Positions 322 to 59,930 of a stretch of 64,000 nt of DNA are shown here, in pieces (position 1 is the stretch's first letter; every line of letters begins with the position of its first letter). The DNA comes from Owenia fusiformis. Lineage: Eukaryota > Annelida > Polychaeta > Sabellida > Oweniidae. The DNA lies in the NCBI GenBank assembly GCA_903813345.2, contig CAIIXF020000001.1:6761098-6825097 (forward strand), read 5' to 3'. The position numbers and the translations under genes were made by a program. A model generated the notes under the pieces. The model had not been told where the DNA came from. It did not search any database and worked only from the letters and a program-made list of their open reading frames with translations.

Positions 322-3300
322 TGTCATGGGGTTATCAGCAGAATCTAAGATGTCTGCCATATGGTCATCGGCAAATGCAAGTCGGTCTGCATTTGAAGAT
401 CTGTAAATGGATAATGACATACCATTGTCAAATATTAGAAAGAGACAACATCTTATACTAATGATCATCACCAAAATATTACAGGCCTCAAGATTAATTT
501 TTCTTCTATGCCTGATTAACTCCCTTTCCTCAAAATGGAATTTGTCACTCACCTTTTTTTGAAGCCTGTGAGGTTTATGAGGTGAATCTTCAACCAATTC
601 AGGCCACTGTCACCCAGTGGCTTACCCTGTGCAAACTGTAGCATACCACGCACGACATCGCTACCTGAAACAGTAATTAAACAGTAAATGATCTCAAAGT
701 AGAAATAATATTTTCTCAAGTTATAACCATAACAATGAATGTACCTACAGTTAAGTATATTTTTCTTAGATGAGTGTCTGTGCCAATCTCTTGAAGACTG
801 AAGATAAAACATTTAACATGAATTACTTGTGGCTAACCTAGGTGATTGAAGTGAGGTGGACATGGGTATACTCTGCCTCTGAAGTCCATGTTGTGGGGAA
901 ACCAAAATATGCAATCTCGAAACTAAAACAAGAAACAGTGATATTTAGCACTTCAAAGAGCAAAATGGCTGCCATGTTACTTAATCAGCATACCAAAAAC
1001 TTAACCAGAATGATGTTGACAAAAGTGTGCTGTTGAACCTGTTAAAATTACAAGTTGAACAATTAGCCAGTTTTCCTCCTAAAGTGTGAAAAAAGGCATT
1101 ATTTTCAAAAATAAATATCAAAAATATCAAAAAAGTTCCACTACTTTGAATATATGTTGTTTTTACCTGATTTGCAATGGAAAGCCTGTAGAGCTCATTG
1201 CACCATAAACTGTACATTTCACTCTTCTGTTGTTTAAGGTGCAGTCTATCTTGGTAGACCTGAGCCCGCTCCTTACGGTCCATGTTTCTAAAAGACAAGC
1301 AACGCATTCATTGAATATATATGTACTCATGTTACTGTCAGACACATAAATGCTGTAACATGTTTCTGTATGATATTCATATAGAACATTTTCATGTTAG
1401 ACAAAAACAATTGCATCATATATATATTCATGTACATACGGATTCTTGTAATAAACATGTATACTTTAATATAACAACAGTATTGTTCTGATTTACTGAT
1501 CCAAAATACTTAATAGAAATTAATTTTTAGGATAATTTTCTACTACTTTTGATAGCGTTCCAATGCACTTACTTAAATAAATGAAGAAAATAAAGGAACC
1601 AGTGTAATTCAAATATCTTCTTTTTCATATATAATTATTTACTGTATTGCCACTCACCTGTCCAGATGTGGTATTGATGGGCACTCTGATATCGGGGGAG
1701 GAATATCAAGATTTTTATCTCCTTTTGAGTTGAACACATCAATGATAATGTCCAGGACCTACAAGATAACAGAAATGTTGAACCAGAACAAGATACACAC
1801 TGATTAATTTCGCACTTTGATGAGAACACAAACCACCAAGTAATTTACCCAGCATTAAATACCTAAGTATGCTCTAGCATGTCTACAGGTATTTTCAAAT
1901 TGAATGGATTAGTGGTTTAACTGTAATAATGACATTAGATTTATTTGCTACGATTTTCATGGCGTCAACCCACCCATCCAGACAGACACAAACATGTATG
2001 CCCATCAGCACAAGACCCATACAATACAGCACACAAAATTGCGATAAAAATATTTTTATATACATGTACATACATATCTGCTATTCCAAAAATGTAAGGC
2101 TTTAAATTTGGAATTATGTCCTAAAAGTTGATGGAATCTTCTAAATGTTCTTGTGTTCAATGAACCAAACAATGATGGATTAATTGTGCATCAACAATCA
2201 ACAACTTAGTTTTCTGTCTATACTAGGCATGCTCACACACCAAACCATTCAAAATGCATTTCATTGCACTCTTGGGTGCTATATTGTTATCAATTTGTTA
2301 TTGCACCTTTGTTTATCATTGTGTTTTTTTAATTTGACTTACTTCATTGTTGATCTTCCATGCACAGCTACTGAGTGTGTTAAGTGAGTCCAAGTGTGTT
2401 TTTCTAATTTGACTTACTTCTTTGTTGATCTTCCATGCACAGCTACTGAGAGTGTTAAGTGAGTCCAAGTGTGTTTTTCTAAGTTGACTTACTTCTTTGT
2501 TGATCTTCCATGCACAGCTACTGAGTGTGTTAAGTGAGTCCAAGTGTGTTTTTCTAATTTGACTTACTTCATTGTTGATCTTCCATGCACAGCTACTGAG
2601 AGTGTTAAGTGAGTCCAAGTGTGTTTTTCTAATTTGACTTACTTCTTTGTTGATCTTCCATGCACAGCTACTGAGAGTGTTAAGTGAGTCCAAGTGTGTT
2701 TTTCTAATTTGACTTACTTCTTTGTTGATCTTCCATGCACAGCTACCACTAGTAATCAGGATTTGGTGTGAATGGGACATTTCTGGTGTTAATTGGTATG
2801 AAAAATAATTTTACTACCATCTAACACCAAGTCACACCATAAAACTGGTGTGACTTGGTATGAAAGGATTAAGAGATTAAACCCCTGCTGTTCAACACTG
2901 AGTCATGCTGTTTGGCTGGTGTGAGATGGTGTTAGAATAAATTTTAATCCCTTTGATCTCTACAAATCAAAATCCACACCAAGTCACACTGAAAACTTGG
3001 TGTTACTTAGTAGTAAAATTTTCATAGTTCTTGATTGCAATTTATAATTCCTTTAATCTTTTGATCTGCTTATTATTGTATTTTTTCTAAGGGATTTGTC
3101 AACATGTCTAGAATGGAAACTAAACTTGAATTTTTATTTAAGAACATATTTATTTATCATTAATTACTTGATTTTAGTATATGTTTAAAACTTTAATAGT
3201 ATTCTTATAGGCTTAGTTTGAGTCTAATTCATCTTTTCCAAATAACTAGAGAAAAAACTTAATCGTCAAACATTCTAATTATTATTAATTGTTTTAAACC

Positions 3301-6300
3301 TTAAAGATTAAAAAAAACTTGATTTGTCAAGTTATTAAAATAGCATTAATGGATGAGTGTCACAAACAGGATTAGTGAAGCAATTGAGCAACTGAGTATA
3401 ATAAACAAAAATATCAAACATTGATGTCACGTTTTGTTTTTTGGTATTGCTACATTGTTTGAATAGATATGACTTAACATCTAATGAGCCTCATTTTGGA
3501 CATACAGATAAACAAGCATAGTAAAAAAAAAGTAAGGTAATATGTAATGAACTACCCATCACTGCCATGTTATTAATACATTTAAATGAAAATTGACAAG
3601 GATGGGCAAATGTGCCCATACTGTAAACATAATGGAATGACCTGCTCAGAGTGAAGTGTGGGCAGATGACAATTTGACTACTAAATGTCAGGTTTAGAGT
3701 CAATAATAGGATTAGTATGCCCATAGATGATTCCTAATTGCCCATAGATAGTCCTAATGTGCCCACACAGTACTATAGACATAATGGAATGACCTGCTCA
3801 GGGTGTCACTGAAGTCTGGGCAGATGACAATTTGACTACTCATAAATGTCAGGTTTAGAGTCAATAATGGGATTACTATGCTCATAGATAATTCCTAATT
3901 GCCCATAGATAGTCAAAATGTACCCATACATACTACTGTAGACATAATGGAATGACCTGCTCAGAGTGTCACTGAAGTGAGGGCAGATGACAATTTGACT
4001 ACTCATAAATACTACCCATATATTCCATCATATGGTAATGGACGTTTTGGCCCCATGTATGCTCAATGGACTTATCCATTTGTTGTTCAGTGTTGGGTGG
4101 CATGCCAGGCCCTGAACAAAGAGCATTAAGAAGCAACCATCATGTAAAACATATGCAGTTTACAATTGGGTGTCCCATATGGCATTAAGTGGTCAGGCAG
4201 CTAAAGTCACCAAGAAAGTTCCATCAGAAACCCCCAAGACTATGACAGAGTATATGTCAATGTCACCATCTACAGATAAATGTTGGACATTCTCTTTGTT
4301 AAAAGAGGACTATAGGAGCTCAAGAACAATTGCACATTTTTATGAAAACCTCTACCCTAATGAGAAACCAAATTTATGTGACATTGACCCAGTATGTAAG
4401 TTTGTTGGGGAGTGGTAAATATCAAGTGATAATAATGAACGGCCAGAAGAGATAGATTCCTTCTTTCATTCTCATAATATTAAATGTGATACTAAAATAT
4501 ATCACTTGTCTTTTGTGAGCAAACCCTTAGCTTTAGCTGTTGAAGGAGATAGAGTTTGGTTTGTAAATTACAAATAAGATGAAGAGTTATCCTTTTAGTT
4601 ATATGTATATTGTTGTACATGGCTAGCATATTATTTATTACGATAAAAAGACTAAATGATTTCAGTAAGTACACATAAGTTATTGCCTCTGTTGATTTGT
4701 CCACTTAGGAATACAATTTCAATTGTGATGATTATCTATATCTCCCAAAAGTATGCAAACATATTGAATAAATATAAAACTAATTTTAGAATTAATTTAT
4801 TTTAATAAATCATAGTGGATTTAATTATGAAATTACTTAATTGCTGTATTGGAACACTGTACTAATAATCTATAGAAACAAAAACAATAAGTATAAGGCA
4901 ATCAAGAGATCAAATACATGTTAAAATGCAATCAAGGATTAAGAAAATGAAGTTTTATGTTTTACTACCGATTCACACCAAACTTTCAGTGTGACTTGGT
5001 ATGAATTTTTGTTTGTAGAGATCAAGGGGATTAAATTTGATTTTCATACCATCTCACACCAGCAGTATGGTGTGACTCAGTGTTGAACAGCAGGGGTTTA
5101 ATCTCTTAATCCTTTCATACCAAGTCACACCAGTTTTATGGTGTGACTTGGTGTTAGATGGTAGTAAAATTATTTTTCATACCAATTAACACCAGAAATG
5201 TCCCATTCACACCAAACCCTGATTATACTGAGAGTGTTAAGTGAGTCCAAGTGTGTTTTTCTAAGTTGACTTACTTCTTTGTTGATCTTCCATGCACAGC
5301 TACTGAGTGTGTTAAGTGAGTCCAAGTGTGTTTTTCTAATTTGACTTACTTCTTTGTTGATCTTCCATGCACAGCTACTGAGTGTGTTAAGTGAGTCCAA
5401 GTGTGTTTTTCTAATTTGACTTACTTCTCTGTTGATCTTCCATGCACAGCTACTGAGTGTGTTAAGTGAGTCCAAGTGTGTTTTTCTAATTTGACTTACT
5501 TCTTTGTTGATCTTCCATGCACAGCTACTGAGTGTGTTAAGTGAGTCCAAGACTGGGTAGAGCTGCTCTGGGGGACAGGCTGCCATCACTTCATGCTGCT
5601 CAGGGTGAGCTTCAGGGAGACGGACAAGTTTTGCTGTAAAAATACAGTATAAGATATATACCAGGTCGTTCAATAAGTTTGCAGAAAAATCATTCAACCT
5701 GGTGGTGGTATCTAGCTCATGTTTTTGAAAATTATGTGAAAGAACACCATCATGTTTTTAATATGTCAAACTTAAGTGGTGTGGGAAACAAGTCTTTCAG
5801 ACAGGACAAATATGACCAGTCCATCTGCGTAGACCTGTGTCATAGCTGGGCATTACAGGTAAATCATTAGCTTGCAAATGTCCCTGTGTTTTTTTTTACT
5901 TACTTGAGGCAAGCATGAAGCCCCCAGATCTGACAGAGGTCCAAGGAATAGGTGGCACCAGCATAGGTACTTCATAGATGTCGAAGGTCAAGCTTCGAAT
6001 CCCTACATCTCTGTATAAACGCACTAATGCTGGATGTGGCTGAGTAAAAAAGAAAGAAAAAATAATATCATTGAAGTGTTAAACTTTTATGTACAGTTGT
6101 AGTGAACAAAAAATTGATTTCTACACATATTAAGATCAGTATTACTAACATAATGAGAATTAGGAAACGGCGACTCCACAGAGTAGCAAATCCCACCGAA
6201 CCAAACATTGATCAAATACCCCATCATATTTTGGACATTACATGATAAAAATAAAACTTGCACTTAATCCTATTGCTCAGGTGTTTTAAGTTATTATAAA

Positions 6301-21619: not shown

Positions 21620-23941
21620 GAAAGAGGAGATAGCTTACCATGCGGATCCAATGTAGTATCTGTACTGAACTTTATGAACATGATAGCATTATATCTGGGC
21701 TACCTTGTGGCCATCTATTCCACAGGGAATGTGTTCAGCGCTGGTTTACAAGCAGCAACAAAAGAGACTGTCCCCAATGCAGAAATCATGTGGATAGGAA
21801 AAAAGTTATTGATAAACTTTATTTCGTGGTTGGTGACTATGACAATGGTGAAACAGAAGACAATGCACCCGAAAGGATAAAAAACCAGTTGGATGATGCC
21901 AAAGTTACTATACGGGAGATTAAGAAAGACAAAGAAGCTGCAATAGAGAAATATGCAAAACTGCAAAGAGTTATCAATGAAATTAGTGATGAAAAACACA
22001 GTTTAAAGCTATTGTTTGAGCAAGAACAAGCTAGTAATGAAGGACTCCAGAGACAGGTTGCCTTCCTCCAGGCTCAACAGAGGGATGCTCAGAGAGCAAA
22101 AGAAGAGTGCAAAACTTACAAGAAAAGGGTTACAGAGTTAGAAAATGTAGAGAAAGTTGTTAAAGGTAAATTCTTATTTAAGATAATCAAACATTCTGTA
22201 ATTTTTCAGATTAGACACTTCCATTGTATAATTTGAACTGAATGGAGAATTCTTAGGGAAGAATACACCAGAAAATAGGCCATCAAAATTTGAATTATCC
22301 CAAAGAAAATTCATGTCTACTTTATAACATGATAATATGCAATGTTTTTAAACAGAGGCTCATGTGTTATAGAAATCCAGGAAGAATGTCAGAATGACAG
22401 AGTTTAAACCACTTTGGCTTATATGCATAGCCTAATCCAATGTAATTAAAGTGTGGTATGTGAAATGTGAAAAATCGTGAATTTATTTAAAACCAACTTT
22501 TAGAGAGAGGTCACATATATTTTTATGAGCGATAATTTACACCAATGCATTCATCCTCACATGTTTTTTGCTGAAAAATGTGTTCATAAATTAGCAAGAA
22601 ATGAACTCATCCATGTAGGAAAGTGGTTCAGAGAAAAATGCATTTCAAAATTTTAGTTCTCATAGAAACCAATGGTTCAATAATATTTAAAACATATATT
22701 CTTCCTTTCAACCTGGTTGGACATTAAACATTATTACCACCTTGCCGGACCTGTTCTAAGGGTATTTTAGTTTGGTTGAGAAAGCTTATATTTTGCTATA
22801 TTGACCTTAGCAATAGTTGACACCATAGCAGCAGGCCATAGTGGCAGGCCAAAATCATTTCAGCCCAGTGATGTTCCTTGGGAAATGAGATATCGTTCAG
22901 TGCATAACCCTTATGTATGTTCTTTTTGTATAACAGCCTGCCTTCTGGTTAAGAGAGTGATGCTAGGCTAAATATATTTCAAAACTCCAGCTATTAAATG
23001 CCCAAAATATTTTAGTTAGCTGCATAGAAAATATCTGAGTGTACTTAATGCATCTACACTGACTGGTGTTTCAATTTAATTAATCGTAACATTGTCTATT
23101 TACAGGCTGTGAAAGTGAGGTACGGGAACTGATATCCCAGCGTGGAGATGGCTCGGGGAGTATGAAGGAGCTTGCACAGTGGAATATCACACTCAAGGGA
23201 GAGTTGACACGAACAAAGAGAGACAAAAGATTCATGCAATCTGAAAATGACAAGCTACGCATCCAACTATCGAATGTTAAAAAAGCATTGATGGATAAAA
23301 CTACAGAATGTACTGCAATCAAAGAACAGTTCAATGATTCTGAAAATGATTTGAAACACACTGAGAAGGAAAATGAAAAGTTGAAGAAAAAGTTGGCACT
23401 GCTTATGTCATCACTAGGGTCACCTGGAGATACTGCAGCAGGTTTTGCCCACAGGCTTATGAATGAGAGTCCCATGCCTCTGCCCCCTAAACTCTCTACC
23501 CCCTCTTCAAGTGGCCAGATAGACCTTGATTCTGGATCCTTTGTAGTGCCATGTACACCAGAGATTGTAAAACCTAGTCCAAATACTCAGATTAAAAATG
23601 ACTGTGAAAATAATGGAATTAAATACATCAAAACGACATCATTAGCTAATCCCTCCAAGAAACGTAAAGCTGATGAGCCTGTCGAAAACTTTGTAGTAGG
23701 TTTAGGAAACTTGAATTTGTTCAAGAAAAAAGGTTTAATTGAAAACAGTCGCATTCGTAATGGCTACAATGGTATGGGTGGTCATGAAAAATTCATTGAA
23801 ATGAGGAAAGGACCTCAAATGAAACCTTTAAAAAAGCCAGTTCAGAAATCAGGTCAACTTCCCAAAGCTTCAAAGTTGGCGAAGAAAAACCCTCCTCTCC
23901 CCAAGTTAGATTTTTACTTGTCACAGAATACATCTGATTAG
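21620..23941 (+). CDS. TRAIP: TRAF-interacting protein, RING-type E3 ubiquitin ligase (two coding exons)
   Basis: TRAIP is a nuclear E3 ligase that ubiquitinates the CMG helicase and proteins crosslinked to DNA at stalled forks. Coding exons are 21640-22165 (from ATG, within an exon starting at 21620) and 23106-23941; the 940-bp intron has GT/AG ends. The product is 453 residues, close to human TRAIP (469). Residues 5-47 are a RING with C5, C8, C23, H25, H28, C31, C44 and C47 (CGHLFHREC, CPQC). A long coiled coil follows, rich in E/K/Q, from about residue 75 to 285. The C-terminal third is basic and low-complexity with KKRKADEP as a possible nuclear signal. The last residues, LPKLDFYLSQ, resemble the C-terminal PIP box of vertebrate TRAIP. 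The ATG sits 20 bases after the acceptor, and no earlier in-frame ATG lies in the exon. Confidence 0.95.
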
Positions 23942-52529: not shown

Positions 52530-52997
52530 CTGCAACATGAGAAGAGATTGTCTTTACTCTATATACATAATACAGTAATCTCCCAAGCATCAAAGCAAGT
52601 GGGCGCAGTACCCACCTGAGATTTTGAAAATAAGCTTGGATCCACCTGAAAATCCATTTGAACCCAATTGAAAATGAGAAAAAAAATCATGAAAAATGAC
52701 TTTGTTCAACTGGCAATGATTCAACAGAAATTGATTAGAATTTAAAAACATAGATGGCATTACAGTCCTTCCTCCCATTAAAACCATTTACACATATAAA
52801 TAATCAGCACGTTTTGACCAATTTTGGTCTGAGTTATGCAGTAGAGATAATTTTTGAAAAACAACATTTCAATGATTCAAAATGTGTTCACGTTTGATAC
52901 ATTTCACTGTACTATACACAAATATATATCGAGGTCATTGGATTCCAGGACAGTATACTTTCAACAGTTAAAGCATTTGGATTGAGTTTTCAAAATC

Positions 52998-54596
52998 ATG
53001 GGACATTTAAAAGTGTTCATGCTTTGTTGCATGATGATGGTTGTTTTTCCGGTGCCTTGTCATGGAAGTAAAATATTAATGTATCCTCTTGATGCAGGCT
53101 ATAATAGCAGACTTATGAACATGTTTAAACTCGGCAGAATGCTCATTAAGGCCAACCACCAGATCACATTTGTTGTTTCCGACAGAATGAAAGAAGATGC
53201 TTTGTTTAAATTGGCAGAGGGAGGAAAAGTGGATTCTAACCTTAATGTAATCAGCTATAAAACTCCACCAGTGGATCCGACAGTAATGCACGTGAGTACT
53301 GAGAACCAGGACTTTCTTGAAGCATTGATCATAAGGGACTTTGCACAGACTTTGAATCTTTTTGGTCAAGCATTAAGTATTGCACTGAATAGCACACTTC
53401 AGGATAAAACTGTCATTGACCAATTGAATGCACAACAGTTTGACCTTATTATTGCGGATGAATTTTCACTGTATCCAAGAGTCATTGCTGCAGAAAGAAA
53501 CATTCCGATCATATTGTATTGCAATTTTGGCCCCATGTCTTCTGATTCTGATATCATTCCGAGGTACAGTTTGGCATATGTAAATGCAAATTTCAATAGA
53601 TTCAGTGATGTTATGACATTTCTTCAAAGGCTGGAAAATGTATGGGATTATCTAAAAATTCAATGGGAAATGTCTGGTATCTACACATTAGCAGAAGCTG
53701 TTTGCCAAGAACATGGTTACGGGAAGTCTTGTGACAATATCAGGGGGATCCACAAGACTGTTAACCTTGTGCTCATGAACAGAAATGATGTTACTTATTA
53801 CCCTGCACCCTATATGCCACATATTATTTCCTCAGAAGGGTTCTTCCTTGATAAACCAAAACCTTTGGATAGTTACTACACAGATGTTATAAAAAGGTCA
53901 GGAAGAGATGGTATCATCGTGGCTAGCTTTGGGTCAATGTTCCGGAGATTAGCACCGAAATATCGCACCATTTTTGCTGAAGCATTTTCTAAAATGCCGC
54001 AAACTGTAATATGGAGCTACGAAGGTGAAACACCAGAAGGTCTTGGAGATAACACAATTGTTTCAAAATGGATTCCTCAAACTGATCTACTGGCAAATCC
54101 TGCAGTTAAACTGCTCATAACACAGTGCGGGGCTTCTTCATTATTTGAGGCATTAAACTGTGGTCTTCCTGTTGTTGCGATTCCCTTTATTGGGGACCAG
54201 GAGTACAATTGTCTTAAACTTGCGGACAGAGTCAAATCAGCCAAGTTTGTCAAGTTGAAAACTATTACGAGTGAACAACTACAAAGTGTAATGGAAGAGG
54301 CTATAAATGATAAAACATACAGAGCAAATGCAAGGAAAGCCACATCAATATATCATGACCAACCCATTGATCCAAGAAATAAAACATTGTTTTGGATTGA
54401 GTATGTCATTCGCCATAAAGGAGCAGCACACTTGAGATCAGCTGGGGAAAATCAGCTGAACTTTTTTCAATATTATCTTCTCGACATAGCTGGATTAGTT
54501 GCAGTCATTTTGTTTACTGCTTTGATAAGTTTGATTGTGATCCTGAAAGCAGTAATTAATTGCTTGCTAAAAACTTTAAAACATAAAAAGGACTAA
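52998..54596 (+). CDS. UDP-glycosyltransferase, intronless, 532 residues
   Basis: The UGT family transfers a sugar from a UDP-sugar to small lipophilic substrates in the ER lumen. Residues 1-23 are a signal peptide (VFMLCCMMMVVFPVPCHG). Residues 24-280 are the acceptor-binding half and the rest the nucleotide-sugar half. The signature is ITQCGASSLFEALNCGLP with GDQEYN following, preceded by SKWIPQTDLL; the usual THGG is TQCG, a variation the PROSITE pattern allows. A transmembrane helix (GLVAVILFTALISLIVIL) is followed by a cytosolic tail ending KHKKD, a KxKxx ER-retrieval signal. The catalytic Asp is present (Asp154, ADEF), but the N-terminal catalytic His position is Arg38 (NSRLMNM where the family has SHWMN). 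The length is normal and there is no break. It lies opposite in strand to the COR-TIR-TIR gene, either upstream of it or within its 5' intron. Confidence 0.95.
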   Translation: MGHLKVFMLCCMMMVVFPVPCHGSKILMYPLDAGYNSRLMNMFKLGRMLIKANHQITFVVSDRMKEDALFKLAEGGKVDSNLNVISYKTPPVDPTVMHVSTENQDFLEALIIRDFAQTLNLFGQALSIALNSTLQDKTVIDQLNAQQFDLIIADEFSLYPRVIAAERNIPIILYCNFGPMSSDSDIIPRYSLAYVNANFNRFSDVMTFLQRLENVWDYLKIQWEMSGIYTLAEAVCQEHGYGKSCDNIRGIHKTVNLVLMNRNDVTYYPAPYMPHIISSEGFFLDKPKPLDSYYTDVIKRSGRDGIIVASFGSMFRRLAPKYRTIFAEAFSKMPQTVIWSYEGETPEGLGDNTIVSKWIPQTDLLANPAVKLLITQCGASSLFEALNCGLPVVAIPFIGDQEYNCLKLADRVKSAKFVKLKTITSEQLQSVMEEAINDKTYRANARKATSIYHDQPIDPRNKTLFWIEYVIRHKGAAHLRSAGENQLNFFQYYLLDIAGLVAVILFTALISLIVILKAVINCLLKTLKHKKD

Positions 54597-58979: not shown

Positions 58980-59930
58980 TTAAAATTTACCCAGAATGCC
59001 ATGAAAATTTGAAATTGATCCATCACACAGTTAACCAGAAAACATGTAAACAAGACTTTACAGACAAGATTTTAGGATGGAAAATCCAAAATGGCTGCCT
59101 TGACATTTACCCAAAATGTAAAAAAACTAATCAGTTTGTAAATTTTCATACTAAAATTCATCCCTGAAAATATGAAATTGATCTTCCGAATGGTTCACCT
59201 GAAAACGCATAGACAAGACTTTACAAACAAGATTTTAGGACAGAAGATCCAAAATTGCTGCCTTGACATTTACGAAGAATGCCAAAAAACTAAACAGATG
59301 TAGATTTTCATACTAAGAATCATCCCTGAAAATTTGAAATTGATCTACCAAACGGTTCACCTTAAAACGCGTAGACAAGACTTTACAGGCAAGATTTTTA
59401 GACGGAAAATCCAAAATGGCTGCATTGACATTTATCTATACTGCCAAAAAACTAATCAGATCTCGATTTTCATACTAAGAATCATCCCTGAAAATTTGAA
59501 ATTGATCTACAGAATGGTTCACCTTGAAATGCATAGACAAGACTTTACAGACAAGATTTTAGGACGGAAAATCCAAAATGGCTGCCTTGACATTTACCCA
59601 GAATGCCAAAAAACTGATCAATTCTAGATTTTCATACTAAGAATCACCCCTGAAAATTTGAAATTGATCTAAAAAACGGTTCACCTGAAAACGTGTAGAC
59701 AAGACTTTACAGACAAGATTTTAGGACAGAAAATCCAAAATGGCTGCCTTGGCATTTACCCAGAATGCCAAAAAACTAATCAGATCTAGATTTTTATACT
59801 AAGAATCATCCCTGAAAATTTGAAATTGATCCACCAAACGGTTCACCTGAAAACGCGCAGACAAGACTTCACAGACAAGATTTTAGGACGGAAAAATCCA
59901 AAATGGCCGACAATAAAAAAGTGATTATGA
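58980..59930. repeat. Six ~162-bp tandem repeats within the CCCGGGGG transposon
   Basis: Each unit has GAAAATTTGAAATTGATC, then GACAAGACTTTACAGACAAG and AAAATCCAAAATGGCTGCC. GAAATTGATC recurs near 59011, 59172, 59335, 59497, 59660 and 59822. Confidence 0.9.

Follow-up and report, generated by a model that had tools for sequence, protein, structure and literature searches.

The POLRMT Gene and Its Exon Junction

We have analyzed a stretch of 64,000 nucleotides from the annelid Owenia fusiformis (contig CAIIXF020000001.1, positions 6,761,098 to 6,825,097 of the forward strand), referred to here as the window. Its - strand holds part of the gene for the mitochondrial RNA polymerase, POLRMT, and two exons of this gene flank an intron of 3.7 kb that contains a tandem array of splice donors. 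The features of the locus are collected in Table 1. Elsewhere in the window, on the + strand, open reading frames at 21634-23941 resemble, by eye, a TRAIP-type RING-finger protein, and a stop-free frame of 536 amino acids at 52986-54596 resembles, again by eye, a UDP-glucuronosyltransferase.

Table 1. Features of the split donor array in the POLRMT intron, in window coordinates
Feature	Position	Strand	Remarks
POLRMT exon, 134 nt	5500..5633	-	reads KLVRL...CAWKINKE; ends in phase 0
Downstream POLRMT exon	1658..1758	-	starts VLDIIIDVF, phase 0; acceptor AG at 1759-1760
Donor 1, GTAAGT, presumed normal donor	5494..5499	-
Array near half: donors 1-4 and beginning of unit 5	5226..5551	-	intron G at 5499, 5424, 5349, 5274
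Array far half: donors 5-10	2317..2743	-	intron G at 2717, 2642, 2567, 2492, 2417, 2342
CACTA-type transposon inside unit 5	2747..5225		2.5 kb
Target-site duplication TAC (+ strand)	2744..2746 and 5226..5228		both sides of transposon
Terminal inverted repeat, upstream arm	4960..5225	-	inner end is the query end; arm may be longer
Terminal inverted repeat, other arm	2747..3018	+	CACTAG, then 266 bases 91% identical to the first arm; inner end approximate

When joined, the two exons match 11 distinct solved sequences of mitochondrial DNA-directed RNA polymerases. Ten of these are POLRMT sequences, which we take to be human, with E values from 1.5e-14 to 2.8e-14; the eleventh (6ymv_A, presumably from yeast) gave E = 0.0007. 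All four of the alignments shown to solved POLRMT are gapless over the exon junction, and in that to chain 9mn4_E (1230 residues, aligned over residues 669-743) the junction falls at 712/713. The upstream exon had been assigned to the T7-like part of POLRMT, directly before VLDIIIDVF, by an earlier reading made from the sequence only, and the match of the joined exons to solved chains at E about 1e-14 supports both the POLRMT identity and the position before VLDIII.

A search of the genome with PF00940 (RNA_pol), in which scoring was restricted to the best candidates, gave four matches, all on the - strand within the POLRMT gene (C1:6743558-6760853), and among the candidates scored we found no second POLRMT locus. 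POLRMT is taken to be single-copy in this genome. One of the four matches contains a TAA, which an intron spanned by the match could perhaps explain, and the intactness of the gene is therefore only partly shown.

Ten Splice Donors in Tandem

The sequence GAA/GTAAGT, where the slash marks the exon-intron boundary, occurs ten times on the - strand at a spacing of 75 bp, four times before the transposon and six times after it, and the donor 9-mer is the same at every one of them. The 75-bp unit comprises 50 bases of POLRMT exon followed by 25 bases of intron; in unit 1 the exon part is the final 50 nt of the 134-nt exon itself. Donors 1-4 thus lie at the start of the intron, and donors 5-10 lie some 2.8-3.2 kb into it. 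Tandem Repeats Finder (TRF) reports a 75-bp period on both sides of the insert, with 4.3 copies, 98% matches and a score of 631 at 5226-5551, and 5.7 copies, 97% matches and a score of 812 at 2320-2746. The donor positions and TRF confirm the proposal of the sequence-only reading that ten donors lie 75 bp apart in a unit of 50 exon and about 25 intron bases. The extent that it gave, 2316-5550, requires adjustment; the array is real, but the repeats extend from about 5551 (CTTGGACTC) down to about 2317. At the first donor, given there as 5498-5499, the first intron base is 5499 and the last exon base 5500.

The units were also described as nearly identical. They are indeed 97-98% alike, but five internal columns (17, 46, 47, 60 and 64) are variable, as is one edge column of the last unit. 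Columns 46 and 64 are each variant in one unit, and one of the five internal columns varies in the last unit only. An A-to-C change at column 60, in the intron part of the unit, is common to units 4 and 8, which lie on opposite sides of the transposon; an A-to-T change at column 17, in the exon part, is common to units 5, 6, 7 and 9 and so spans the transposon (the split unit 5 was omitted from the column count, and its T was read from its separate half). Ten near-identical units of 75 bp are far beyond chance expectation. A DNA search of the genome with the exon and first unit, using a method whose initial pass skips very common words, returned ten matches, all at the POLRMT array locus.

A CACTA-Type Transposon Splits the Array

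The sequence-only reading noted an inserted transposon, which is present and can now be described as CACTA-type with a 3-bp target duplication. Sequence matching its arm was found in at least 42 places in the genome. In all eight of the other paired copies that were fetched, CACTAG is present at both ends together with a 3-bp target duplication; both features are traits of CACTA (EnSpm/CMC) elements. The window copy has one CACTAG end. Its end at 5225 is without exactly the six terminal bases of the family, and the TAC duplication is intact. The loss of these six bases at 5225/5226 may be a scar that immobilized the element.

The two arms of the window copy differ by about 9%. This cannot be converted into an age for the insertion, and we rejected such an estimate, because the arms of six of the eight family copies differ in the same way: in these (L041-L046) one arm is 97-100% identical to the query arm and the other 91-92%. 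In the remaining two copies (L047 and L048) both arms are about 89-90% identical to the query arm. Compared with L043, the nearest of the eight copies, the matching pieces of the window copy are 96.0-98.2% identical, i.e., 1.8-4.0% different. One family copy of 9.4 kb (L046, C7:1561100-1570700) contains an open reading frame of 462 amino acids that by eye is reverse-transcriptase-like, and another element seems to be nested within it.

Order of Events

The transposon interrupts unit 5, and the array was therefore in existence when the element landed. Since units on both sides carry common variants, several units would already have been present at that time. The simplest reading of the unit sequences is that the array was already multi-unit before the transposon arrived, and had grown partly by multi-unit blocks, although the common variants could likewise stem from subsequent conversion between the two halves. 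This tempers the earlier suggestion of a recent expansion: the units are 97-98% alike, but the array was probably multi-unit before an element arrived that now differs by 1.8-4.0% from its nearest compared relative. No flanking repeat that might explain the first duplication was seen on reading the ends of the repeated segment. Variation in array length between alleles, also suggested earlier, is plausible.

Reading Frame and Predicted Longer Products

The unit is free of stop codons in the POLRMT frame, including its intron part, on both sides of the transposon. Use of donor 2, 3 or 4 would lengthen the protein in frame by 25, 50 or 75 residues, as the sequence-only reading had deduced for the downstream donors on the near side. 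The exon would lengthen from 134 to 359 nt with donor 4. Beyond donor 4 the frame meets a stop within the transposon; on the far side, the POLRMT frame stays open through the array until a stop directly past donor 10.

Other routes through the array were set aside on reading the sequence. Splicing from a donor to the CTCAG of the next unit would require an intron of 47 nt, with a TAG in frame. Cassette exons that pair donor 5 with acceptor-like sites borne by the transposon were also considered: from an AG ending at 2916 the reading meets a stop, and from one ending at 2783 the frame is shifted.

The point at which residues from donors 2-4 would be inserted lies between CAWKINKE and VLDII, in sequence conserved with solved POLRMT. 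According to passages from PMC7893070, an in-frame deletion of human POLRMT residues 742-747 occurred in a patient who also carried a second variant, and residues 742-747 are near promoter DNA. These residues lie some 30 residues past the insertion point.

Repeats modelled without an alignment often appear as long helices, a known weakness. AlphaFold2, given as input one repetitive sequence alone (the exon read through to donor 4, with four units) and with no control folded, predicted one helix over residues 21-118, with mean pLDDT 88.4 and pTM 0.49; all that can be drawn from this is that the unit is compatible with a helix. Because the product with four units still appears as a single helix in this single-sequence model, such an insertion need not be destructive.

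Chance, Selection and RNA Structure

When random DNA from the window is set behind GTAAGT, a fraction of 0.68 of the draws contains no stop within 24 nt; of 48 other GTRAGW sites on the strand, 32 likewise lack a stop. Multiplied by the one-in-three chance of a frame-keeping length, the value of 0.68 gives a joint chance of about 0.23. The open frame is therefore weaker evidence than first appears.

Read as codons, one of the five internal variants is silent and four change a residue, while all 225 possible single substitutions in the unit divide into 42 silent, 171 missense and 12 stop. There is thus no excess of silent changes (1/5) among the unit variants, five being a number that gives little power. 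Five variable columns would all fall outside the nine donor columns with a probability of 0.52, and would create no stop with a probability of 0.76. From their sequences the unit variants look neutral.

Local RNA folding gave a mean unpaired probability of 0.30 for donor 1, 0.18-0.30 for donors 2-9 and 0.56 for donor 10. Folding therefore shows no advantage for donor 1, and RNA structure was rejected as the cause of a donor 1 preference. Taking frame odds, unit variants, RNA folding and local repeats together, we found no sequence evidence of selection for extra donors.

Repeats in the Surrounding DNA

TRF was run over 82,998 bases, retaining clusters with a period of at least 30 and at least 2.5 copies. 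The 11 clusters obtained correspond to 10 arrays, as the split POLRMT array was counted twice. One of the 10 sits inside the transposon, and some lie in other POLRMT introns. GTRAGT is found on the - strand only in the donor array; on the + strand there are ten in the donor array and one each in two other arrays. At about 120 arrays per Mb, a density extrapolated from one region, some would be expected to lie across donors by chance. One array among many that spans an exon end and keeps frame is not clearly in excess over chance.

Among the individual arrays, another POLRMT intron has one of 42 bp with 13 copies and 96% matches (L039:4750-5295, at about -4250 to -3705 in window coordinates). 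Two more in the POLRMT gene have a period of 119 (in L040) and of 148/284 (in L039, as overlapping rows). The right part of the window holds several arrays with long units, among them one of 162 bp with 5.6 copies at 59002-59907.

DISCUSSION

Relation to Known Systems

Neither this array nor splice-donor repeats in POLRMT in general are reported among the literature matches listed, as judged from titles, the starts of abstracts and cited passages. The closest precedent is the splice-donor minisatellite of human IFI6 (6-16, G1P3), reportedly described by Turri, Cuin and Porter in 1995, the unit of which is very short at 12 bp. In IFI6 two downstream repeat units serve as donors, giving three mRNA species, according to the part of PMC4526556 cited here. 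The likeness lies in a tandem repeat supplying several donors in one transcript. In POLRMT ten of ten units carry a complete donor, unit 1 is a real exon end, and the 75-bp, stop-free unit keeps frame, with the chance of about 0.23 noted above. IFI6 differs in that use of its multiple donors is documented in mRNA, whereas in POLRMT such use is predicted from the sequence. Moreover, IFI6 is an interferon-induced gene, while the present array lies in a core enzyme, its unit includes 50 bp of conserved coding exon, and it is split by a transposon.

Other systems are more distant. In human genes of segmental duplications, internal tandem repeats, some at exon-intron boundaries, alter structure and splicing (excerpts of PMC2812944); the cases there are recent human paralogues with a mean of four 30-bp units, in contrast to ten 75-bp units at one locus. 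Intron gain by tandem duplication, e.g., in potato RdRp (PMC4974935), is similar in that an intragenic tandem duplication affects splice sites, but here an existing donor has been multiplied and no new intron is evident. DDX3Y/MSY2, as far as the cited part of PMC3039753 describes it, is a promoter case and unlike the donor array. With respect to CACTA (EnSpm/CMC) DNA transposons, the insert alone belongs to the family and the array does not. The kind of element, a splice-donor minisatellite, is thus already known; the new features are the unit size, the conserved coding sequence within the unit, the core enzyme that hosts the array and the interruption of the array by a transposon.

Origin and Splicing of the Array

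The best explanation of the locus is that of a passive minisatellite, in which donor 1 is the main splice site, donors 2-4 are predicted to be used leakily, and the transposon came later; we put its probability at about 0.68. A 75-bp segment over the exon end and donor of the POLRMT intron would have been duplicated in tandem, and would have grown to ten copies by single- and multi-unit duplication before the CACTA-type element split it. The array would be passive intron sequence, tolerated as repeat DNA. Splicing mainly from 5499 would produce normal POLRMT, with the array and transposon assumed to leave with the intron. Since the donor 9-mer does not vary among the ten units, donors 2-4 are likely to be used leakily to some extent, which would give in-frame products longer by 25, 50 or 75 residues at the point equivalent to 712/713 of the solved full-length chain. 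The neutral look of the variants, the frame chance of about 0.23 and the commonness of minisatellites in the region support the passive reading. Both the lack of a folding advantage for donor 1 and the model in which four units keep a helix may count against it. So may the manner in which donors can compete. In earlier work quoted in PMC5585400, the intron-proximal donor is activated by SRSF1 and the intron-distal one by hnRNP A1; in the cited part of the same paper, SRSF1 suppressed the upstream donor less when the stronger donor occupied both positions. With donors that are equal, the SRSF1 rule means that donor 4 or a later donor could be favoured; as the two proteins act oppositely, either end of the array could win in principle.

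Strict preference for the first donor and length variants of the polymerase were the two alternatives posed by the sequence-only reading. It is unlikely, in our estimation, that the downstream donors are used substantially and that POLRMT has functional length variants with one to three helical units of 25 residues. Identical donors, in-frame stop-free units, the analogy of IFI6 with its use of repeat-borne donors, and the single predicted helix would all accord with such variants. Yet the frame has its chance of about 0.23, the unit variants look neutral, the helix was modelled from one repetitive sequence and is subject to the known weakness for long helices, and the insertion would strike the conserved CAWKIN-VLDII stretch of a one-locus enzyme that is held to be essential. 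Less probable again is that the intron-proximal donor wins, making donor 4 the main site and the normal protein one with a 75-residue insertion. Competition can favour such a donor (PMC5585400, in the part cited) and the 9-mers are identical, but the exon would have to reach 359 nt, the same rule would presumably have favoured donor 10 before the transposon landed, and the gapless junctions of the solved chains shown point to a conserved enzyme that has no insert there.

We consider it very improbable that the assembly is in error, with a true array that is shorter or longer or a misplaced copy of the transposon. Arrays of near-identical units are well known to collapse or expand in assemblies, and one transposon end is without six bases; against this, each half of the array is merely about 330-430 bp, the TAC duplication is intact, and a genome of 498 Mb in 525 contigs, with a contig of 62 Mb, suggests long reads. 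Ten full GTAAGT sites in one 3.7-kb intron might also bind U1 and so regulate the transcript, as decoys or as a shield against early polyadenylation. Conservation of the donors does not exceed chance (five variable columns would spare them with a probability of 0.52) and we know of no precedent for such a regulatory role of U1 sites in a POLRMT gene; this idea we find hardly credible.

Significance

Ten donors with the same 9-mer in near-identical context, within one natural transcript, offer a means to separate position from sequence in the choice of donor. As the conserved exon end is tied to a minisatellite, intronic variants could enter the exon by conversion. Longer forms, if produced, would test the tolerance of a single-subunit RNA polymerase core to insertion. 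It is conceivable, at long odds, that the animal has a POLRMT core with a variable number of 25-residue helical units, set by donor choice and by the allele length of the minisatellite. If true, there would be natural length variants of an otherwise invariant mitochondrial RNA polymerase.
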